From: Chitinophaga pinensis
Lineage (GTDB): Bacteria > Bacteroidota > Bacteroidia > UKL13-3
Assembly (NCBI GenBank): GCA_945861965.1
Contig: CAMAWM010000016.1
Location: 1-44,788, forward strand
Direction: 5' to 3'
DNA length: 44,788 bases
Numbering within the stretch: the stretch's first letter is position 1; every line of letters starts with the position of its first letter. The notes under the pieces are model-generated. The model saw only the letters and a list, made by a program, of their open reading frames with translations. It did no database searches and was not told the origin of the DNA. The translations under genes were made by a program, and so were the position numbers. Positions 229-9,939 of this stretch are shown piece by piece.

Positions 229-534
229 ATGGTTTTGACAGAACGCATTGAAGCAGATAAAATTCTTTCCGCAGTAAATATGTTGAAAGTAATTGCACAC
301 CCTGTTCGCTTGGCTATTGTGGACTTGCTGACAGAGAACAAAAAAATGACTGTGCTTGAAATTCAGGAGGCTTTGAATTTAGAACAAGCCATTGCATCTC
401 AACACCTGACACTGATGGAGGACAAAGGCGTATTGATTTCTGAAAAAGTGAGCAGAAATAAATTTGTTTCACTTCGCCACCCAAAAATGAAAAACATTGT
501 TACCTGTTTAGAAAATTGCTGTAACGAATTATAA
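229..534 (+). CDS. ArsR-family winged-helix regulator, probable sulfur/redox sensor
   Basis: A 101-residue single-domain winged-helix protein. The segment around residues 19-35 (MLKVIAHPVRLAIVDLL) is the classic ArsR first helix, followed by a recognition helix near residues 53-66 (QAIASQHLTLMEDKGVL). The canonical ELCVCD metal-binding motif is absent. The only cysteines are C93, C97 and C98 at the C-terminus. ArsR relatives such as SqrR/BigR sense persulfides through cysteine pairs; this cysteine arrangement is different, so a sulfane-sulfur or thiol signal is an inference from the neighbouring sulfur genes. It is the first gene of the island, 7 bp before the next gene, and has a palindrome in its own promoter. 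Confidence 0.85.
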   Translation: MVLTERIEADKILSAVNMLKVIAHPVRLAIVDLLTENKKMTVLEIQEALNLEQAIASQHLTLMEDKGVLISEKVSRNKFVSLRHPKMKNIVTCLENCCNEL

Positions 535-541
535 ATTTTTT

Positions 542-1303
542 ATGATAAAACATATATACATAACTATAATTCTATCCTATTTTAACAATACAATTTTTGC
601 CCAAAGCATTCCGCATCTCAATTCTTGGTGTAGAGTTACACTTTCGCAACCCATCACTGAAAAGTGGAGAACAGAAACCGAGTTACAGCATAGGCGACAA
701 AACGATTTTTCCCAACAAGGAAAAAATGTATTTGACGAAAATTTATTAAGTAGCGTTCGTACTTGGGTACACTACCAACACAAAGACGATTTAAGTTTTT
801 CATTTTCGCCTTTTGCATATTACTGGCATAATAGCATTATAGTAAATGATGCAGACAAAGAAAAACCACAAATAAAAGAAATACGGTTTTCAATTGCAGC
901 CGACCTAAACCATGAACTAGTAAAAAGCCTTTTGATTATTGATCGTACTTGTTTAGAATACCGTGATTTTCAAAACACAAATACGGATTTTACCAGAATG
1001 CGAAACCGCCTTGGGCTTCGCTATGAGTTTAGTAAAAAATTGAACTTTACATTTTACGATGAAATATTTTTAAATCTCAAAGGAGCTAAACCAGTTAATT
1101 TTTTGGACCATGACCGTTACGCATATATACTCAACTATAAGCCAAACAAATACCTACGAATAGAAACTGGATATATCTATATTGCACGTCTGCCAAGAGG
1201 TACTGACGAATTTTTGCACGAGAACAATTTTTTGCTTCAGTTCTATTATATTTTACCACACAGGGAGCATCGTAAACACCCAAAGACACAACATCATTCA
1301 TAA
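542..1303 (+). CDS. DUF2490 outer-membrane beta-barrel-like protein
   Basis: A 253-residue protein with a signal peptide that probably ends after FAQ near residue 21, followed by alternating hydrophobic/aromatic strands. The opening (LNSWCRVTLSQPITEKWRTE) and the repeated R/Y-rich strands match DUF2490, a Bacteroidota family of unknown function predicted to form an outer-membrane barrel. It follows the regulator by 7 bp and precedes the TauE-like exporter, so it is probably co-transcribed. A role as an outer-membrane channel for sulfur compounds is possible, but nothing in the sequence proves it. Confidence 0.75.
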   Translation: MIKHIYITIILSYFNNTIFAQSIPHLNSWCRVTLSQPITEKWRTETELQHRRQNDFSQQGKNVFDENLLSSVRTWVHYQHKDDLSFSFSPFAYYWHNSIIVNDADKEKPQIKEIRFSIAADLNHELVKSLLIIDRTCLEYRDFQNTNTDFTRMRNRLGLRYEFSKKLNFTFYDEIFLNLKGAKPVNFLDHDRYAYILNYKPNKYLRIETGYIYIARLPRGTDEFLHENNFLLQFYYILPHREHRKHPKTQHHS

Positions 1304-1322
1304 ATATATTAAATTTAAAAAA

Positions 1323-2120
1323 ATGGAAATAATAGGTTATATCGCATCAATTTTTATAGGCATTGCGCTTGGTTTAATAGGTGGTGGTGGCAGCATTCTT
1401 ACGGTGCCAGTTTTAGTATATCTTTTCGCAGTAGATGCAGTGGCAGCCACTGCTTACTCATTGTTTATTGTCGGGCTAACAAGTGCCGTAGGTTCAGTTT
1501 CTTATTTTAAAAATGGTTTAGTAAATATTAAAACGGCCATCATTTTTGGTATCCCTTCCATCATAGCCGTTTTTTTTACAAGGGCTTATATAGTTCCAGC
1601 CATACCAAAAGAAGTATTTAGTATTGGCGATTTTATGGTTACTAAAAGCATATTAATGATGTTGCTATTTGCCATATTGATGATAGCCGCCTCTTACAGT
1701 ATGATAAAGAAAGTTAAGAAGAAAACTACTGAAAACGATAGCAAACAAGAATTTAATTATCCAATCATATTAATAGAAGGAGCAGTAGTAGGCATTCTTA
1801 CCGGTTTAGTAGGAGCAGGTGGTGGATTTTTGATTATTCCTGCATTGGTTATACTTTCTAAACTGCCAATGAAAGAAGCCGTTGGCACTTCGTTAGTAAT
1901 TATTGCGGCAAAATCTTTAATAGGATTTTTTGGAGAAGGCTCAGAAACTTTTATTGACTGGGCTTTGCTCATTAAAGTATCTGCCTTTGCCATAGCTGGA
2001 ATTTTTATAGGCACTATGCTTTCTAAAAAAATTGACGGTGCAAAACTAAAACCTGCCTTTGGATGGTTTGTATTGGTAATGGGTATTTACATCATCATCA
2101 AAGAAACCATTTTTAAATAA
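1323..2120 (+). CDS. TauE/SafE-family sulfite/organosulfur exporter
   Basis: A 265-residue polytopic membrane protein. The reading frame is open further upstream, but the ATG at 1323 starts directly with a membrane segment (MEIIGYIASIFIGIALGLIG) and clears the preceding gene, so I chose it. The two family hallmarks are present: a glycine-rich GLIGGGGSILTVPVL near residues 17-31 and its inverted-repeat partner GLVGAGGGFLIIPAL in the second half. TauE/SafE proteins export sulfite, sulfoacetate and related anions. Placed beside a persulfide dioxygenase gene, removal of sulfite from the cytoplasm is a reasonable job. Substrate is inferred. Confidence 0.85.
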   Translation: MEIIGYIASIFIGIALGLIGGGGSILTVPVLVYLFAVDAVAATAYSLFIVGLTSAVGSVSYFKNGLVNIKTAIIFGIPSIIAVFFTRAYIVPAIPKEVFSIGDFMVTKSILMMLLFAILMIAASYSMIKKVKKKTTENDSKQEFNYPIILIEGAVVGILTGLVGAGGGFLIIPALVILSKLPMKEAVGTSLVIIAAKSLIGFFGEGSETFIDWALLIKVSAFAIAGIFIGTMLSKKIDGAKLKPAFGWFVLVMGIYIIIKETIFK

Positions 2121-2184
2121 AAATGAAACTAATGGTGGTACTTAGCAACAAGTAAATCAATTTGTAGCTAATAAATAATTGCAA

Positions 2185-3273
2185 ATGGAAAGCAATAAAG
2201 AACAAAAATACATTGATACAATTATTTCATTGGTTAAGACTATTATTTATTTAGTTTTATTAATTCTTTGTTGCATTTTGTTTTTGTTATTTCAAGAGGA
2301 TATTCAAAAATATATTGATGATGCACCTAAACGAAAAGCCGAAAAAATTGCTTTAGATGCTCAACTTGAAAAAAATAAAATTGAACCTGAAAAACAGAAA
2401 GAACTAGATTCTTTTTGGGTAGCTAAAGATTTTTCTAATATTTCAGATAGTGCACAATTGGCTCAACTAGAATATGGCAAAGATCTTATTGCACATACTG
2501 CCAAATTCCTTGGACCACATGGAAGTGTAGCCCGAATCACTAATGGAATGAATTGTCAAAATTGCCACTTAGATGCTGGTACAAAAGCATGGGGGAACAA
2601 TTATGGTGCAGTATTTAGCACTTACCCTAAATATAGAGCAAGAAGTGGCAAAGAGGAAGATATTTTTAAAAGAATAAATGATTGTGTAGAGCGGAGTTTA
2701 AATGGAAAAGCATTGGAAATAAACAGCAAAGAAATGCAGGCTATTAAAACTTATATTGAGTATATTGGAAGTGATGTTAAAAAAGGCAAAGAAGCCAAAG
2801 CTAGTGGAATATATAAACTTGGTTTTCTAAATAGACCAGTAAATCCTGAAACTGGCAAAGCTATTTATGCTACTAAATGTGCAAGTTGCCACCAAGCCAA
2901 TGGTCAAGGAGTATTAGCCGAAGATAAAAAAGAATACACTTACCCACCTCTGTGGGGAAATAATTCTTATAATGATGGTGCTGGTTTGTACAGTATAAGC
3001 CGATTTGCTGGCTATATAAAATTCAATATGCCTCAAGGGGCCACCTATCAAAATCCACAATTGACCGATGAAGAAGCTTGGGATATTGCAGCCTATGTAA
3101 ACTCTCAAGATAGACCAAAAAAAGACCTAAGTAATGATTGGCCAAATATAGCAGAAAAGCCTGCAGGCTACCCTTTTGGTCCTTTTGCTGATAGTTTCAA
3201 CACAGCTCAGCACAAATACGGACCTTATCAACCCATTGCGGATTTTAACAAAAAAAATAAAAAGAAATTGTAA
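2185..3273 (+). CDS. tsdA: TsdA-like dihaem cytochrome c (thiosulfate dehydrogenase family)
   Basis: A 362-residue protein with an N-terminal membrane anchor at residues 12-36 and no cleavable signal, so the haem domains should face the periplasm. Haem motifs are CQNCH at 124-128 and CASCH at 232-236. C167 in NDCVERSLNG matches the unusual cysteine axial ligand of haem 1 in TsdA, and M282 (NMPQG) fits a haem 2 ligand. TsdA joins two thiosulfates into tetrathionate or runs the reverse reaction; direction cannot be told here. ATG 2185 was preferred over a TTG two codons upstream. The stop codon touches the start of the soxB-like gene, so the two are probably translationally coupled. Confidence 0.82.
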   Translation: MESNKEQKYIDTIISLVKTIIYLVLLILCCILFLLFQEDIQKYIDDAPKRKAEKIALDAQLEKNKIEPEKQKELDSFWVAKDFSNISDSAQLAQLEYGKDLIAHTAKFLGPHGSVARITNGMNCQNCHLDAGTKAWGNNYGAVFSTYPKYRARSGKEEDIFKRINDCVERSLNGKALEINSKEMQAIKTYIEYIGSDVKKGKEAKASGIYKLGFLNRPVNPETGKAIYATKCASCHQANGQGVLAEDKKEYTYPPLWGNNSYNDGAGLYSISRFAGYIKFNMPQGATYQNPQLTDEEAWDIAAYVNSQDRPKKDLSNDWPNIAEKPAGYPFGPFADSFNTAQHKYGPYQPIADFNKKNKKKL

Positions 3274-4980
3274 ATGGACAATAATAAAAGAAGAGATTTT
3301 TTAAAAAATCTAGGGACTTTAGGTCTTGGTTTAAGTTCCGTTTCTACACTATCTAGTTTTAGTATGGAGACAGAACATACCAAAGGAGAAAAAACAATAG
3401 AAACCATAGGTGCTAATGGTGAAAAAACGACAACCATTAGTATTCTTCAAACCACCGATGTGCATTGTCAGATACACCCACACGATGAGTTATTTTGGGA
3501 GAATGAAAAGATTGTTTTTCGTAAAACAGGCGGCTATGCTCAAATGGCTACCATGCTAAAAAATTACAAAATAAAAAATAAAAATACTTTCATTATAGAT
3601 ACTGGTGATATGTTTCAAGGCAGTGCTTTAAGTGTGAAAACTACAGGCGAAGTTTTTGTGCCAATACTCAATGCACTCGATTACAATTTGTATCTGCCAG
3701 GAAATTGGGAAGTAATTTATGGTAAAAGAAAAATGCAAAATTTATTGGGTAGTCTTAATGCTCCAAAAATATGTGCAAATATGTACCACGATTTAGGGGA
3801 AGGCAAACGAGGTGAACTCATATTTCAACCCTATCATATTTGGACTGTAGCAGGCGCTAAAATTGGATTTCTAGGTTATACCGATCCATTAGTTCCTATC
3901 CGCCAAAGCCCTAATTACAGCAAGGGAATACTTTATACAAAGCCCGAAGAAAATTTAGCTCATTACATTGATGTTCTAAAAAATCAAGAGCAATGCAGTT
4001 TTGTAATTATTCTATCTCATTTAGGTTTATCGCAACAGATTGCTCTTGCCAATATGCAAGATTGCAAAGGTGTGGATTATATTCTCGGTGGAGATACTCA
4101 CGAAAGAATTCGCAAACCAATAGTTTGTAAATATTCAAAAGTAGTAGAACCAGGTGCATTTGGTAGTTTCATAGGTAAATTAGATTTGACTATAAAAAAT
4201 GGAATCGTAGTAAATGAAAACTACGAATTACTAGAAGTAAATGCAACAAAAATCAAACCCGATGTAAAAATTCAAAAGTTATTAAAGGACAAAGAAAGTT
4301 TGTATAAAGCAGAAATTGATACTGTGGTAGGTTACAGCACCATTCCTTTGTACCGCTACTTTGTAGTAGAAAATCCTATCGACACGATGATTGTAAACAG
4401 CTTACATTGGCGATTCCCCGAAATTGATGTAGTGCTTAGTAATGGGTTTAGATTTTGTCCGCCTAGAGCCACAGCAGATCATACGGGCAATATACCAATT
4501 ACTGTCGGTTATATATTTGATATGCTCCCTGTGGATAGTGTTGTGAGGACGGCTAAGGCTACTGGCAAACAATTGCAAGATTGGCTTGAAAGAGAATTAA
4601 ACAATGTATTTTCCAAAGATGCATCAAAACGCTTAGGCGGTTGGGTAGTTAAATTTAAAGGAATGCAAATGAGCTTTAATGCCTTTGCCGAAATGGGGAA
4701 GAGAGTACAAAGTTTAACAGTGAAAGGAATGCCAATAGACCTGAACAAACAATATTCAATATTGGCTTGTGAAAGAGATGGCGACCCAGAAGATATGCTG
4801 TGCAGATTGAAAGGTGTAACAGATGCTAAAAATACAGGAGTTACTTTGCATAAAGTAATGAAGGAATACTTACTGGTGAATTCACCAGTAACGCCTTCGC
4901 CTGAAAAAAATGCTGTCATTTTGGATGCAAAACCAACTTTGTTATCTCAAGTGACAGATGTAGATTATACTTTTAAATAA
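3274..4980 (+). CDS. soxB: SoxB-like thiosulfohydrolase with Tat signal
   Basis: A 568-residue calcineurin-like metallophosphatase/5'-nucleotidase-superfamily protein. The N-terminus has a twin-arginine signal (KRRDFLKNLG), implying folded export with metals bound. Metal and catalytic motifs: D62-x-H64, DTGDMFQGS near 109-117, GNWEV at 143-147, SHLG near 248-251 and GGDTHE near 272-277. GNWEVIYGK in place of the nucleotidase GNHE is the SoxB signature. The C-terminal domain has LSNGFRF, comparable with the SoxB LSPGFRWG region. SoxB normally removes sulfate from a sulfane chain on the SoxYZ carrier, but no soxYZ is in the window. It starts at the base after the tsdA stop. An unusual nucleotidase is the alternative. 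Confidence 0.8.
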   Translation: MDNNKRRDFLKNLGTLGLGLSSVSTLSSFSMETEHTKGEKTIETIGANGEKTTTISILQTTDVHCQIHPHDELFWENEKIVFRKTGGYAQMATMLKNYKIKNKNTFIIDTGDMFQGSALSVKTTGEVFVPILNALDYNLYLPGNWEVIYGKRKMQNLLGSLNAPKICANMYHDLGEGKRGELIFQPYHIWTVAGAKIGFLGYTDPLVPIRQSPNYSKGILYTKPEENLAHYIDVLKNQEQCSFVIILSHLGLSQQIALANMQDCKGVDYILGGDTHERIRKPIVCKYSKVVEPGAFGSFIGKLDLTIKNGIVVNENYELLEVNATKIKPDVKIQKLLKDKESLYKAEIDTVVGYSTIPLYRYFVVENPIDTMIVNSLHWRFPEIDVVLSNGFRFCPPRATADHTGNIPITVGYIFDMLPVDSVVRTAKATGKQLQDWLERELNNVFSKDASKRLGGWVVKFKGMQMSFNAFAEMGKRVQSLTVKGMPIDLNKQYSILACERDGDPEDMLCRLKGVTDAKNTGVTLHKVMKEYLLVNSPVTPSPEKNAVILDAKPTLLSQVTDVDYTFK

Positions 4981-5020
4981 ACAATAATAAATTATTCATT
5001 AACCAAATAAATATATCAAT

Positions 5021-5587
5021 ATGATAGAATTAATCAAACAACCCTGGCATTGGGCAGTAGCAGGCGCCATAATCGGCTTAACCGTGCCCACCTTATTGCT
5101 CATTGGCAATAAAAAGTTCGGCATCTCATCATCGCTTCGCCACATTTGTGCGATGTGTTTGCCTGCTAATATTCCATTTTTTAAGTACGACTGGAAAAAA
5201 GAAATCTGGAATTTATTTTTCGTAGTAGGTGTACTTCTAGGTGGTATTATTGCAACTCAATTTTTAAGTAACCCCGATACAATTGTAATAGCAGATAGTA
5301 CTAAAGCAAGTTTATCGGCATTGGGGATTACAGATTTTAGCAATTTAATGCCTTCTGATTTATTTAGTGTAGAAAATATTTTTACCCTAAAAGGGCTTTT
5401 CTTTTTCGTAATCGGAGGCTTTTTAGTTGGATTTGGCACTCGCTATGCAGGTGGCTGCACCAGCGGACACGCCATTATGGGCTTATCAACACTACAAATG
5501 CCTTCGCTTATTGCTACTTGTTGCTTTATGGCAGGCGGTTTCTTTTCGGCAAATATTCTTTTACCACTCATCTTAAAATTATTTTAA
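5021..5587 (+). CDS. YeeE/YedE-family transporter, N-terminal half
   Basis: A 188-residue membrane protein with about four or five membrane segments. Conserved parts are the glycine/proline-rich [20 protein letters not shown] near residues 15-34, the ICAMCLP cysteine pair near 41-47, and [20 protein letters not shown] in the C-terminal half. CTSGHAI is the sulfur-handling cysteine motif of YeeE (TsuA), which takes up thiosulfate. The family often occurs as two half proteins in Bacteroidota and Proteobacteria, and the second half follows after a 2-bp gap. Thiosulfate or sulfane-sulfur import is therefore likely, but not proven for this protein. Confidence 0.85.
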
Positions 5588-5589
5588 CA

Positions 5590-6078
5590 ATGGAAAATAA
5601 ACAATCAATAGAAACTCGTCATCAAGACGCAATGTGTACCAACGAAGCAGAGGTACAGCACCCATTTTGGCACAATTTAAAATACCTTGTAGTAGGCATT
5701 GCCTTTGGTATTGTATTCGTGAAAGCCGAAATCATCAGTTGGTTTCGCATACAAGAAATGTTTCGATTGCAATCGTTTTTTATGTATGGGGTCATAGGTA
5801 CAGCCGTAGTAGTGGGTATGCTATCCGTTTGGCTTATCAAAAAGTACAACATCAAAACAATGAGTGGTGAAACCATCAAATTTGAAGACAAAACTTTTAG
5901 CAAAGGACAAATTTTTGGAGGTTTAATTTTTGGCATCGGATGGGCTATTACAGGTGCTTGCCCTGGACCATTGTTTGCACAAATCGGCAGTGGCTTTTTG
6001 GTAGTAGGTGTTACCTTTTTAAGTGCCGTAGCGGGTACTTGGGTGTATGGCTATTTCAGAGAAAAACTTCCCCATTAA
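5590..6078 (+). CDS. YeeE/YedE-family transporter, C-terminal half
   Basis: A 162-residue membrane protein that pairs with the gene just upstream. An upstream extension is open to 5518, but it overlaps the previous gene; the ATG at 5590 gives the usual start (MENKQSIETRHQD, then PFWHNLKYLVVGIAFGI). The family's second cysteine site is visible as GWAITGACPGPLFAQIGSG near residues 118-136. The two halves probably assemble into one transporter that relays a thiosulfate-type ion over conserved cysteines, as in the single-chain YeeE. Operon position between soxB-like and TPMT-like genes supports a sulfur role. Confidence 0.83.
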   Translation: MENKQSIETRHQDAMCTNEAEVQHPFWHNLKYLVVGIAFGIVFVKAEIISWFRIQEMFRLQSFFMYGVIGTAVVVGMLSVWLIKKYNIKTMSGETIKFEDKTFSKGQIFGGLIFGIGWAITGACPGPLFAQIGSGFLVVGVTFLSAVAGTWVYGYFREKLPH

Positions 6079-6099
6079 TATCAAAAACATTTAATAAAG

Positions 6100-6738
6100 A
6101 TGGATAATCAAGAAAAAGAATTGCAATGTTGTGTAACCACTTGTGGTTTGCCACTTAACGCTGAGTATTGGAATAACCAATACAAGAACAACGAAATTGG
6201 TTGGGACTTACATCAGGTATCGCCACCATTAAAAGCATATTTTGATCAATTAGAAAATAAAAATATTTCAATTCTAATTGCAGGTTGCGGCAATGCTTAC
6301 GAAGCCGAATATTTATATTCAATAGGGTTCACAAATATTACATTGGTAGATATTGCAGTTGAATTAGTAAATGCTTTAAAAGAAAAATTTAGCAATACTT
6401 CTATCAAAGTAATTCATCAAAATATTTTTGAACATCTAGGGCAATACAACTTAATTGTAGAGCAAACTTTATTTTGTGCTATTGACCCAAGTTTGCGGAA
6501 AAACTATGTTGTCAAAATGCACGAATTACTAAAAGAAAATGGCAAACTAGTAGGCTTGCTTTTTGACAAAGAATTTGAAAAACAAGGTCCACCTTTTGGT
6601 GGTTGCAAATGCCAATATGAACCATTATTCAGCCCATATTTTACTTTTAAAACTTTTGAAGAATGTTATAATTCAACAAAAGCAAGAAAAGGAGAAGAAC
6701 TATTTATAAACTTTAAAAAAAAATTAAAAAATGAATAA
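6100..6738 (+). CDS. TPMT-family S-adenosylmethionine-dependent S-methyltransferase
   Basis: A 212-residue class I methyltransferase. The N-terminal EYWNNQYKNNEIGWDLHQVSPP (near 18-39) is the thiopurine-methyltransferase family signature, followed by the SAM-binding glycine loop IAGCGNAYEAEYL near 60-72 and an acidic strand (LVDIA). Family members methylate thiols and related chalcogen compounds. Extra cysteines occur at the N-terminus (C10, C11, C15) and in the loop GGCKCQYEP. The last 8 bases overlap the persulfide dioxygenase gene. From context it may methylate hydrogen sulfide or a small thiol, as a detoxifying branch; this is inference. Confidence 0.8.
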   Translation: MDNQEKELQCCVTTCGLPLNAEYWNNQYKNNEIGWDLHQVSPPLKAYFDQLENKNISILIAGCGNAYEAEYLYSIGFTNITLVDIAVELVNALKEKFSNTSIKVIHQNIFEHLGQYNLIVEQTLFCAIDPSLRKNYVVKMHELLKENGKLVGLLFDKEFEKQGPPFGGCKCQYEPLFSPYFTFKTFEECYNSTKARKGEELFINFKKKLKNE

Positions 6739-8179
6739 TACAAAATTTCAAGTAGAGCAAATCTACACAGGATGCTTGGCACAAGGTGCTTACTACATCA
6801 CTTCAAATGGCGAAGCCGCCATTATTGACCCACTGCGTGAAACACAACCTTACCTTGATAGGTTGCAACGAGACGGAGTATCACTCAAATACATTTTTGA
6901 AACCCACTTTCACGCTGACTTTGTGAGTGGGCATTTGGATTTGAGCAAACAAACCAATGCAGCCATTGTGTATGGTCCCAATGCCAACCCAACTTTTGAT
7001 ATTATAAGTGCAAAAGATGGAGAAGAATTTGCAGTAGGAAACATTAAGCTAAAAGTGCTGCACACACCAGGGCATACAATGGAAAGTACTTGTTATTTAC
7101 TGATAGACGAAAACGGCAACGAGCATTCCCTATTTAGTGGCGACACTTTATTTATTGGCGATGTAGGCCGACCCGACTTGGCTCAAAAAGCAGCAACAAT
7201 GACACAAGAGCAATTAGCTGCTATATTGTATAATTCTTTACGTACCAAAGTAATGACTTTGCCTGATGAAGTGATAGTATATCCTGCACACGGTGCTGGT
7301 AGTGCTTGTGGTAAAAATATGAGCAAAGAAACCGTTTCAACCATTGGCAATCAAAAACAATTCAATTATGCGTTAAGAGCCAATATGACCGAGGCAGAAT
7401 TTGTAACTGAAGTTACAGACGGTCTTTTGCCCCCACCAATGTATTTTGGAGCAAACGTTGCAATGAACAAAAAAGGCTATGAAAGTTTTGACACTGTTTT
7501 TAATAATGGAATGAGAGCCTTATCAGTGGCAGAATTTGAAGTAGCAGCCGAAGATACAGGAGCATTGATTTTAGACACCAGAAATAACACCGATTTTTGG
7601 AAAGGATTTGTGCCCCAATCTATCAATATTGGTATCAATGGCGACTTTGCCCCTTGGGTAGGTGCATTAATTGGCGATGTAAAGCAAAGCATACTTTTAA
7701 TTACCGAACTTGGACAGGAAGAAGAAACCGTTACACGACTTACCCGAGTAGGTTTTGACAATTTGGTTGGACACCTAAAAGGAGGCTTTGATGCTTGGAA
7801 AAATGCATGTAAAGAAACTGACATCGTAAACCGTATCAGTGCAACTGAATTTGCGAACGAAGTAAAAATTGGAGAAAATAAAGTAATAGATGTACGCAAA
7901 GAAAGTGAGTATGCAGCCGAACACGTAGATGAAGCATATAGCCGACCATTAGCCGACATCAACAACTGGATAAAGGACATTAACTCAACCGAACATTTTT
8001 ACTTGCACTGTGCAGGTGGATACAGAAGTATGATGGCTGCAAGTATTCTAACAGCAAGAGGCTACAGAAATTTTACAGAAATTGAAGGAGGCTTTAAAGC
8101 AATTGCAGAAACAACAATCCCAAAGACAGACTTTGTTTGCCAAAGCAAAGTAATGAAAGCGTGTCTTGTCCTGAAATAG
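6731..8179 (+). CDS. Persulfide dioxygenase-rhodanese fusion (CstB-like)
   Basis: A 482-residue cytosolic multidomain enzyme. The N-terminal metallo-beta-lactamase domain has THFHADF (H59, H61, D63), TPGHT (H115) and SGDTLFIGDVGRPDL, the last being typical of ETHE1-type persulfide dioxygenases. A middle rhodanese-like domain (about 260-360) lacks a catalytic cysteine. A C-terminal rhodanese has HCAGGYRS with C427 as the active-site cysteine. This order matches CstB of the staphylococcal cst system, which turns persulfides into sulfite and thiosulfate. It overlaps the TPMT-like gene and would supply thiosulfate or sulfite to the rest of the island. Domain identities are certain; the substrate is by family analogy. 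Confidence 0.88.
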   Translation: MNNTKFQVEQIYTGCLAQGAYYITSNGEAAIIDPLRETQPYLDRLQRDGVSLKYIFETHFHADFVSGHLDLSKQTNAAIVYGPNANPTFDIISAKDGEEFAVGNIKLKVLHTPGHTMESTCYLLIDENGNEHSLFSGDTLFIGDVGRPDLAQKAATMTQEQLAAILYNSLRTKVMTLPDEVIVYPAHGAGSACGKNMSKETVSTIGNQKQFNYALRANMTEAEFVTEVTDGLLPPPMYFGANVAMNKKGYESFDTVFNNGMRALSVAEFEVAAEDTGALILDTRNNTDFWKGFVPQSINIGINGDFAPWVGALIGDVKQSILLITELGQEEETVTRLTRVGFDNLVGHLKGGFDAWKNACKETDIVNRISATEFANEVKIGENKVIDVRKESEYAAEHVDEAYSRPLADINNWIKDINSTEHFYLHCAGGYRSMMAASILTARGYRNFTEIEGGFKAIAETTIPKTDFVCQSKVMKACLVLK

Positions 8180-8196
8180 GTTTACACATAGTAAAC
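8163..8196. repeat. IS-end-like motif with short hairpin at the 3' end of the cstB-like gene
   Basis: CTTGTCCTGAAATAGGTTTA (8165-8184) resembles the reverse complement of the terminal motif at 125-148. It contains the stop codon of the upstream gene. GTTTAC-ACATA-GTAAAC at 8180-8196 is a perfect 6-bp dyad without a following T-run, so it is a weak terminator at best. The partner copy in the other orientation is at 8898-8917. Confidence 0.3.
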
Positions 8197-8214
8197 TAAA
8201 AAACAAAACAAATT

Positions 8215-8595
8215 ATGACAGAAGAACAAAAATCATTACCAAAATGGATACTCATCGTATCGGCACTTTTTGCAATAATGGAGCTTATGGTAAGTGTCTC
8301 TTTATGCTTTTCTCCACAATCGGTTTTGGAGACCGTTGACCTTAGCGCAAAAGGCGTTGACTACCTGATTTATATGTGGGCGGCCCGACAATTTGCACTT
8401 GGTTTTATCTTTGCTTTTGCGACATATAAAAAATCAATTCCTATGCTGACCATTGCATATATTTTCTTTTTAGTAATGTTTGTTGGCGACTTCATTATTG
8501 GCATTTTACAAAAAGAAAATTCACTTATCGTTGGCGCTTTAGTCATGTGTATTGTTTCTTCAGCATTGATTTTTGCATTAAATAAGAGAAAATAA
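8215..8595 (+). CDS. Small four-helix membrane protein, unknown function
   Basis: A 126-residue protein with four predicted membrane segments (near 11-31, 46-67, 73-95 and 101-121) and a basic tail (NKRK). I do not recognise a named family with certainty; it resembles the general shape of small DUF4345/DUF4267-type proteins. It lies 35 bp after the persulfide dioxygenase gene, separated by an AT-rich dyad, so it may or may not belong to the same transcript. It has no cysteine-rich or catalytic motif that would tie it to sulfur chemistry. Confidence 0.65.
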   Translation: MTEEQKSLPKWILIVSALFAIMELMVSVSLCFSPQSVLETVDLSAKGVDYLIYMWAARQFALGFIFAFATYKKSIPMLTIAYIFFLVMFVGDFIIGILQKENSLIVGALVMCIVSSALIFALNKRK

Positions 8596-8964: not shown

Positions 8965-9939
8965 ATGAGCAAAGGACCCATCTCCGCATTTATCGAAAAA
9001 CACTACCTTCATTTTAATTCGGCCGCACTTGTTGACGCAGCAAAGGGTTACGAAACCCATTTGATGGAAAACGGAAAAATGATGATAACACTGGCTGGCG
9101 CTATGAGCACTGCCGAGCTGGGAAAATCATTGGCAGAAATGATAAGACAAGATAAGGTTCACATCATAAGCTGTACCGGTGCAAACCTAGAAGAAGATAT
9201 TATGAATTTGGTGGCGCACAGCCACTACAAAAGGGTCCCCAACTACCGAGATTTAAGCCCACAAGACGAGTGGGATTTATTAGAAAATCACTACAACCGT
9301 GTTACGGATACTTGCATTCCGGAGGAAGAGGCGTTTCGCAGATTGCAAAAACACATTCATAAAATATGGAAAGACGCAAACGACAATGACGAACGTTTTT
9401 TTCCGCACGAGTATATGTACAAAATGTTGCTTTCTGGTGTGTTGGAACAGCATTACGAAATAGACCCAAAAGACAGTTGGATGTTAGCTGCTGCAGAAAA
9501 AAACTTGCCGATTGTTGTCCCTGGTTGGGAAGACAGCACCATGGGAAATATTTTTGCTAGCTACATAATTAAAGGCGAATTGAAGGCTACAACCATGAAA
9601 AGCGGAATTGAATACATGGTTTGGTTGTCAGATTGGTACCGAAACAATTCGGGCGGAAAAGGCGTTGGTTTTTTTCAGATTGGCGGAGGAATAGCGGGTG
9701 ATTTTCCAATTTGCGTGGTGCCTATGATGTATCAGGATTTGGGCTGGCACGATGTTCCGTTTTGGAGTTATTTCTGTCAGATCTCTGATTCTACAACTTC
9801 ATTTGGCTCTTATAGCGGTGCGGTTCCCAATGAAAAAATTACTTGGGGAAAATTAGACGTCAACACTCCAAAATTTATTGTTGAAAGCGATGCAACAATT
9901 GTAGCTCCTTTAATATTTGCTTGGGTTTTGGGCTGGTAG
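8965..9939 (+). CDS. Deoxyhypusine-synthase-like protein
   Basis: A 324-residue Rossmann-type protein of the deoxyhypusine synthase family. Visible signatures are TGANLEEDI near residue 72-80 (NAD site), a GGG-type loop near 235-239, and GSYSGAVPNEKITWGK near 281-296, whose K296 aligns with the catalytic lysine of the eukaryotic enzyme (GSDSGA...SWGK). The aspartate of GSDSGA is replaced by Y283. Bacteria lack eIF5A, so a different polyamine-transfer substrate is likely, for example homospermidine-type chemistry. TATATTTG at 8940-8947 is a possible -7 element. The stop is only 5 bp from the end of the convergent helicase gene. Confidence 0.8.
   Translation: MSKGPISAFIEKHYLHFNSAALVDAAKGYETHLMENGKMMITLAGAMSTAELGKSLAEMIRQDKVHIISCTGANLEEDIMNLVAHSHYKRVPNYRDLSPQDEWDLLENHYNRVTDTCIPEEEAFRRLQKHIHKIWKDANDNDERFFPHEYMYKMLLSGVLEQHYEIDPKDSWMLAAAEKNLPIVVPGWEDSTMGNIFASYIIKGELKATTMKSGIEYMVWLSDWYRNNSGGKGVGFFQIGGGIAGDFPICVVPMMYQDLGWHDVPFWSYFCQISDSTTSFGSYSGAVPNEKITWGKLDVNTPKFIVESDATIVAPLIFAWVLGW

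Follow-up and report, generated by a model that had tools for sequence, protein, structure and literature searches.

A TsdA-like cytochrome and a SoxB-like protein as the probable core of a SoxYZ-independent thiosulfate-oxidation module in Bacteroidota

The gene pair and its products

The window studied here is a whole contig (CAMAWM010000016.1, 44,788 bases) from a 2.10-Mb Bacteroidota genome that is 96% complete. The left end of the contig, from 229 to 8595, holds an island of sulfur genes in which a gene for a TsdA-like dihaem cytochrome is followed by a gene for a SoxB-like protein. Analyses of the two proteins, their relatives and their surroundings indicated that the pair is probably the core of a SoxYZ-independent thiosulfate-oxidation module, in which TsdA would make tetrathionate and the SoxB-like protein would hydrolyse it.

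The tsdA-like open reading frame (ORF) runs from an ATG at 2185 to a TAA at 3271–3273 (362 residues), with an in-frame TTG at 2179. Its product matched the Pfam families SoxA-TsdA_cyt-c and Cytochrom_C, and its best solved relative by sequence was A. vinosum TsdA (4wqc, E = 4.5e-37). The protein has CXXCH motifs at residues 124–128 and 232–236, Cys167 as ligand of haem 1 and Asn281-Met282 at haem 2. All of these features were present in every one of the 58 aligned TsdA proteins, window included, a length filter having removed one remnant (L111, described below). The two haems, the Cys ligand of haem 1 and the haem-2 Met are shared with the TsdA enzymes of A. vinosum and C. jejuni, whereas the N-terminus of the window protein appears to be membrane-anchored. 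This anchoring had been proposed in an earlier, sequence-only reading of the locus, and a hydrophobic N-terminal segment, as judged by sequence, agreed with it. Among the 58 proteins, four had a lipobox and most others a hydrophobic segment (by Kyte-Doolittle hydropathy, no trained predictor being used, and with some N-termini clipped at contig ends). A second TsdA lineage, approximately 40% identical, was found away from soxB in four genomes (G409, G424, G411 and G422).

The soxB-like ORF (ATG 3274 to 4980, 568 residues) encodes a protein with the Pfam domains Metallophos and 5_nucleotid_C, whose best solved relative by sequence was the SoxB of T. thermophilus (2wdc, E = 1.1e-30). An AlphaFold model of the protein (mean confidence, pLDDT, 84.5) was also closest to 2wdc (Z 38.3, 487 aligned residues, 2.4 Å, 23% identity). 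The best NCBIfam model was TIGR04486 (SoxB), with 249.3 bits against a curated cut-off of 550, while Paracoccus SoxB, as a control, scored 836.3 bits. Membership of the SoxB equivalog was rejected on this score, and we therefore refer to the protein as SoxB-like. The signal for twin-arginine translocation (Tat) claimed in the sequence-only reading was recognizable as a twin-arginine motif, which Paracoccus SoxB also has and which occurred in 80 of 81 SoxB-like proteins of the same clade (clade I: 80 loci and the window) in a pattern search, no signal-peptide program being used.

An unrooted tree of 35 rows, E. flavus SoxB not among them, separated canonical SoxB and the SoxB-like clades from four nucleotidases with NHE or NHD motifs (support 99/97). 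Clades I and II and a DoxX-type group formed one group (100/100) whose inner order was not firm; the tree program warned of long nucleotidase branches meeting and of the long Allomeiothermus row. On the SoxB side of this split, Trp took the position of the nucleotidase His in each of the 31 rows (19 NWE, 7 HWE, 3 HWD and 2 NWD). One row, Cohnella, had been entered as a nucleotidase but grouped with clade III; its motif is GNWD.

In the window protein this residue is Trp145, within GNWE, and is accompanied by a GxDTHER motif and Cys395. Canonical SoxB has HWE and nucleotidases NHE or NHD where the SoxB-like protein has GNWE, so that the catalytic His of the nucleotidase GNHE/GNHD motif is missing from it. 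The Trp position is telling because the SoxB variant in the disulfide-linked SoxB–SoxYZ entry 4uwq has a Cys aligned there. The fold, the Trp and a conserved Arg, which we take to lie in the substrate site, are common to the SoxB-like protein and canonical SoxB (Paracoccus, Thermus). Among the positions at which they differ are three where Paracoccus SoxB has His, His and Gly and the window protein Asn144, Asp274 and Cys395. In the alignment, the two His, presumably metal ligands, are replaced by Asn144 and Asp274 in clades I and II, except that one clade-I protein (L045) has Gly at 274.

Cys395 lies two residues after the conserved Arg393 and was present in 81/81 clade-I proteins. In the alignment the position was Cys in 21/21 clade-I and 5/5 clade-II rows and Gly in the DoxX-type group (4/4), in clade III (8/8) and in Paracoccus SoxB. 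Cys65, Cys241, Cys395, Cys499 and Cys510 were invariant in the 81-sequence set and lay outside the patterns used for the clade-I scan; NWE and DTHER were also invariant, but these patterns had selected for them.

Occurrence of the pair and composition of the island

TsdA and the SoxB-like protein are functionally linked. Of 395 evenly sampled Bacteroidota genomes, 21 had a SoxB-like match at E ≤1e-60, of which 19 (≥40% identity, own genome included) were used for a two-by-two table; G263 and G336, with best matches only 30–31% identical, were left out of this table and of the wider set below. TsdA (E ≤1e-40) was found in 14 of the 19 and in 30 of the 376 others (Fisher 4.5e-11, uncorrected for shared descent). 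In a wider set of 28 SoxB-like genomes, from which five with nucleotidase-like matches only had been excluded (G399, G428, G012, G441 and G421), 22 had TsdA. Two of the six without it look like assembly limits: in G426 (87% complete) the soxB-like gene lies on a 4.6-kb contig, and in G068 a run of N occupies the expected place of tsdA, with the TsdA C-terminus readable beside soxB. The other four were G375, G367, G269 and G103.

The same picture was obtained from individual loci. At least 566 genome stretches encode SoxB-like relatives, and a pattern scan among the matches listed gave 80 named clade-I loci, a count of loci and not of genomes since a few of them share a genome. TsdA was encoded within 58 of the 80 (in one of these, L111, as a remnant only) and elsewhere in the genome for 20 of the remaining 22, or 78 of 80 altogether, the two cases without it being Flavobacterium salilacus and a metagenome-assembled genome (MAG) with a 4.6-kb contig. 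Of the clade-I loci, 61 were well covered, having ≥5 kb on either side, and in 47 of these TsdA lay near the soxB-like gene. The remnant is a 130-aa ORF (L040:9141-9533 in soxB orientation, the same place as L111) in which the beginning of a YeeE half runs into the C-terminal portion of TsdA, apparently as the result of a deletion; an intact TsdA is encoded elsewhere in that genome (G339).

The two genes of the window abut, the TAA at 3271–3273 being followed directly by the ATG at 3274, and in this the ORF coordinates agree with the sequence-only reading. That reading had taken the zero gap to suggest translational coupling and a shared product, and this did not hold up. TsdA lay upstream on the same strand in 52 of the 58 loci that contain it, and none of the 52 had a gap of 0 nt; the gap was ≤10 nt in 13 and ≤100 nt in 25 (counted to the ATG nearest the TsdA stop), and a DsrE-like gene or a porin gene stood between tsdA and soxB in 24. 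An unrelated pair in the same window, which we take to be ybeY and mnmG, abuts in the same way (TAA 16175–16177, ATG 16178). Nor is the tsdA/soxB pair especially tight, because the whole run of ten same-strand genes (229–8595, +) has intergenic gaps of −8 to 64 nt. The zero gap was thus rejected as evidence of coupling. No TsdA–SoxB fusion was present among the annotated stretches, and a long ORF in L038 proved to be a run of N read through and no protein. A promoter and terminator scan gave counts at chance expectation. That the two genes belong together, as the sequence-only reading had it, is borne out by their co-occurrence and neighbourhood.

The neighbours of the pair in the island are sulfur-handling proteins (Table 1), which supports the assignment of the pair to a thiosulfate-oxidation module. 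Since base 1 is also the start of the contig, the island may extend upstream beyond the ArsR gene. The metallo-beta-lactamase (MBL) and rhodanese protein (482 aa) matched structure entries 3tp9 and 3r2u over residues 8–458, and its MBL part, the first half, matched ETHE1 persulfide dioxygenase and BpPRF; we presume it to resemble CstB. Directly after the island, at 8965–9939, is a gene for what we take to be a deoxyhypusine-synthase-like protein.

Table 1. Genes of the sulfur island; fractions are counts among the 61 well-covered clade-I loci
Gene product	Position	Strand	Basis and occurrence
ArsR-family regulator, first island gene on the contig	229..534	+	Family searches
DUF2490 protein	542..1303	+	Pfam; outer-membrane barrel is a guess
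TauE/SafE sulfite exporter family	1323..2120	+	Pfam; 33/61
TsdA-like, membrane-anchored dihaem c-type cytochrome	2185..3273	+	Pfam, 4wqc match, conserved residues
SoxB-like, Tat-signal protein, 5'-nucleotidase fold	3274..4980	+	Pfam, NCBIfam, structure comparison, residues
YeeE/YedE thiosulfate-transporter-like half 1	5021..5587	+	Family searches; 39/61
YeeE-like half 2 (DUF6691)	5590..6078	+	Family searches; 38/61
TPMT-type methyltransferase	6100..6738	+	Pfam; 5/61
MBL with two rhodanese domains, sulfur-dioxygenase-like	6731..8179	+	Pfam, structure-entry matches; 37/61
DUF4267-like protein, last of the same-strand run	8215..8595	+	Pfam, score under cut-off

Much of the island recurs in related loci, where an OprD-type porin gene took the place of the DUF2490 gene in 39 of the 61. 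Runella slithyformis has most of it on a plasmid of 44.7 kb, which encodes TauE, two MBL proteins, a cytochrome, a DsrE-family protein, the SoxB-like protein, an OprD porin, YeeE and DUF6691, and R. rosea has a near-identical gene set on a 47.7-kb record. The plasmid cytochromes of Runella, Pontibacter and Hymenobacter were 55–65% identical to the window TsdA over 265–299 residues. In Novosphingobium and Sporosarcina the more distant SoxB-like genes of clade III have sulfur genes around them, and in Bosea the neighbours are an ArsR regulator gene and thiol-redox genes. None of 24 pattern matches in viral contigs was a relative. A Bacteroidota-type soxB-like gene (L149) is on a contig whose title gives Streptomyces griseus MAG, the bin being probably mislabelled, and a canonical soxB (L190:2887-4635) is next to a chromate transporter gene on a plasmid of Bradyrhizobium betae, with no other sox gene annotated within ~3 kb.

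A variant of the island was seen in G375, G367, G269 and G103, and in these alone among the stretches read: soxB is directly preceded by the gene of a DoxX-family protein and that of a DsrE-like protein, the latter apparently exported. A fifth DoxX locus was that of Flavobacterium salilacus (L129), with another DsrE-like gene directly before soxB. Based on gene content, DoxX and the DsrE-like protein apparently replace TsdA in these five loci (L041, L052, L053, L054 and L129), the pair having been searched against Pfam in L041 only.

A candidate pathway and its alternatives

In the pathway we propose, the membrane-anchored TsdA would join two thiosulfates into tetrathionate on the periplasmic side and pass the electrons to the respiratory chain. 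The Tat-exported SoxB-like protein would then hydrolyse the terminal sulfonate of tetrathionate, or of a thiosulfonate derived from it, to yield sulfate and sulfane sulfur. Judging by the neighbouring genes, the YeeE-type importers may take in sulfane sulfur or thiosulfate, the MBL-rhodanese dioxygenase may oxidise the imported sulfur and TauE may export sulfite. The ArsR repressor may sense sulfane sulfur.

A route of this kind has a precedent. A TsdA–SoxB–SdoA/B pathway without SoxYZ has been published for the deep-sea Erythrobacter flavus 21-3, and TsdA and SoxB homologs occur in Bacteroidetes (PMC7608252). In the E. flavus soxB mutant tetrathionate rises and no zero-valent sulfur appears in the medium, whereas a tsdA mutant given tetrathionate makes zero-valent sulfur (PMC7608252, PMC9426585); these phenotypes place SoxB after TsdA, on tetrathionate. 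MAGs from the Bohai Sea have been read likewise, 21 having SoxB as their only Sox gene and eight of these TsdA (PMC12345210). In Hyphomicrobium, the YeeE-like SoxT1A is needed for delivery of sulfur to the cytoplasm and SoxR is the repressor (PMC11582611), in agreement with the presence of YeeE halves and an ArsR gene in the window. The window has the E. flavus type of gene set, with TsdA, a divergent SoxB homolog and a sulfur-dioxygenase-like gene together and no SoxYZ found. Thus the core of what the sequence-only reading had suggested, a stepwise conversion of thiosulfate or tetrathionate without SoxYZ, stands, but it is not new, having been published for E. flavus.

The sequence-only reading had named a co-encoded SoxYZ as evidence that would speak against it. 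We looked for one genome-wide with Pfam models of SoxY and SoxZ, the search not including SoxAX and SoxCD, and each was absent from all 28 SoxB-like genomes, own included (26 of the 28 being ≥90% complete). As a positive control, one record, a Paracoccus plasmid, gave 4.3e-34 and 1.2e-30. The window's own genome is 96% complete and a SoxYZ gap there is therefore not wholly excluded.

Several observations weigh against the proposed pathway. The order of the steps in E. flavus rests on mutants, and the soxB mutant forms slight zero-valent sulfur on plates, with tetrathionate falling late (PMC7608252). Two further SoxB-like proteins of the E. flavus cluster can be deleted without effect (PMC7608252), so that likeness to SoxB alone is no proof of role. 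The window protein scores below the TIGR04486 cut-off, and two predicted metal-ligand positions, Asn144 and Asp274, are unlike those of Paracoccus SoxB. The soxB-like gene is beside another cytochrome in 10 of the 61 loci, TsdA being encoded elsewhere in those genomes. In addition, the haem-2 Asn-Met resembles that of the C. jejuni tetrathionate reductase, and a DsrE-like protein, a possible carrier, is encoded in 35 of the 61 loci. As a separate observation, in L042, L044, L045 and Algoriphagus the soxB-like gene is near a different dihaem cytochrome (c22), mostly directly after it, and away from TsdA, which these genomes encode at another place.

The DsrE-like protein figures in the foremost alternative, in which the SoxB-like protein needs a carrier other than SoxYZ and its real substrate is a thiosulfonate bound to a small thiol or to the Cys of a protein such as the DsrE-like one. 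In the Sox system the substrate of SoxB is a thiosulfonate attached to a Cys, and such a Cys should become loaded through chemical reaction with tetrathionate (PMC5336275). Consistent with a carrier, two Runella plasmids have the DsrE-like gene between tsdA and soxB, and in the DoxX-type loci it immediately precedes soxB. However, of five genomes searched with the DsrE-family Pfam model, three matched while the window's genome and G411 did not (control genomes matched in 9 of 14 cases). A DsrE-like protein as obligatory carrier was therefore not upheld, as it is not needed everywhere; the window's genome gave no match for SoxYZ, the known carrier, or for the DsrE-like protein seen in relatives. 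We regard dependence on some such carrier, which may also be a small thiol, as possible but rather unlikely.

A less probable idea, and a speculative one, is that this SoxB-like branch carries its own carrier, Cys395 taking the thiosulfonate of tetrathionate and presenting it to the protein's own metal pair. The suggestion comes from the conservation of this residue; the loop that holds it (391–400) has a mean pLDDT of 64 in the model. Against a built-in carrier, Cys395 and TsdA do not always go together: L041 and L129 have Cys395 beside DoxX, and a Pontibacter protein has Gly with TsdA adjoining. If the idea were true, the swinging-arm Cys of SoxY would have been internalised in the SoxB-like branch.

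It is similarly improbable, in our view, that TsdA serves as a tetrathionate reductase in respiration and that the SoxB-like protein merely scavenges or detoxifies polythionates. The haem-2 Asn-Met found in 58/58 proteins does favour this, as C. jejuni TsdA, with Asn254 and Met255, acts as a tetrathionate reductase (PMC5146829) and the A. vinosum enzyme has Lys-Met (PMC5146829, PMC6879331), and TsdA enzymes are bidirectional (PMC6879331). Yet C. jejuni TsdA kept its direction when Lys was put in place of the Asn (PMC5146829), and the sequence therefore does not fix the direction of TsdA. The dioxygenase, TauE and YeeE neighbours would point to oxidation, and the E. flavus mutants show the oxidative order (PMC7608252).

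Finally, an ordinary periplasmic 5'-nucleotidase that lies in a sulfur island by chance is very unlikely: although the fold is the same (3ive gave Z 36.3) and RefSeq names the plasmid relatives bifunctional metallophosphatase/5'-nucleotidase, Trp replaces the NHE/NHD His in 81/81 proteins (a pattern preselected for NWE) and in clades found without the pattern, the tree sets the SoxB-like proteins with SoxB, the window's genome has a separate NHD nucleotidase (L064), and the co-occurrence with TsdA would be left unexplained.

Relation to known systems and significance

The proposed pathway of TsdA and the SoxB-like protein resembles that of E. flavus in having TsdA, a SoxB-like protein of the 5'-nucleotidase family and an MBL/rhodanese sulfur dioxygenase in one cluster. 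It differs in that the window genes form a compact island with TauE, a split YeeE and ArsR, and in that their SoxB-like product is a member of a Bacteroidota branch marked by GNWE, GxDTHER and Cys395. Unlike the canonical Sox system, SoxY and SoxZ were not found with this branch. The tetrathionate-intermediate (S4I) pathway (DoxDA, TetH) likewise converts thiosulfate to tetrathionate, which is then hydrolysed, but in the window TsdA would stand for DoxDA and the SoxB-like hydrolase for TetH (TetH was not searched for). The DoxX-family and DsrE-like genes beside soxB in the five TsdA-less loci may be compared with this pathway.

The TsdA–SoxB–Sdo route without SoxYZ is already published, Bacteroidetes homologs included. 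What appears to be new is the SoxB-like branch, its Bacteroidota island and the apparent replacement of TsdA by DoxX and a DsrE-like protein, as no description of the island, of the GNWE/GxDTHER/Cys395 branch or of this replacement was seen in the searches made of the open-licence literature, supplements being outside the scope of the search. The branch is distinct, widespread and usually misnamed. Since RefSeq names its plasmid members nucleotidases and the window protein falls under the SoxB cut-off, surveys based on the curated SoxB model would miss these Bacteroidota thiosulfate oxidisers. Carrier-free SoxB-type activity is suggested by the E. flavus mutants, and not settled there. The minimal version of the island in the window, in which TsdA abuts the SoxB-like protein and neither SoxYZ nor DsrE was found, would be a good system in which to address the question of a carrier-free SoxB.

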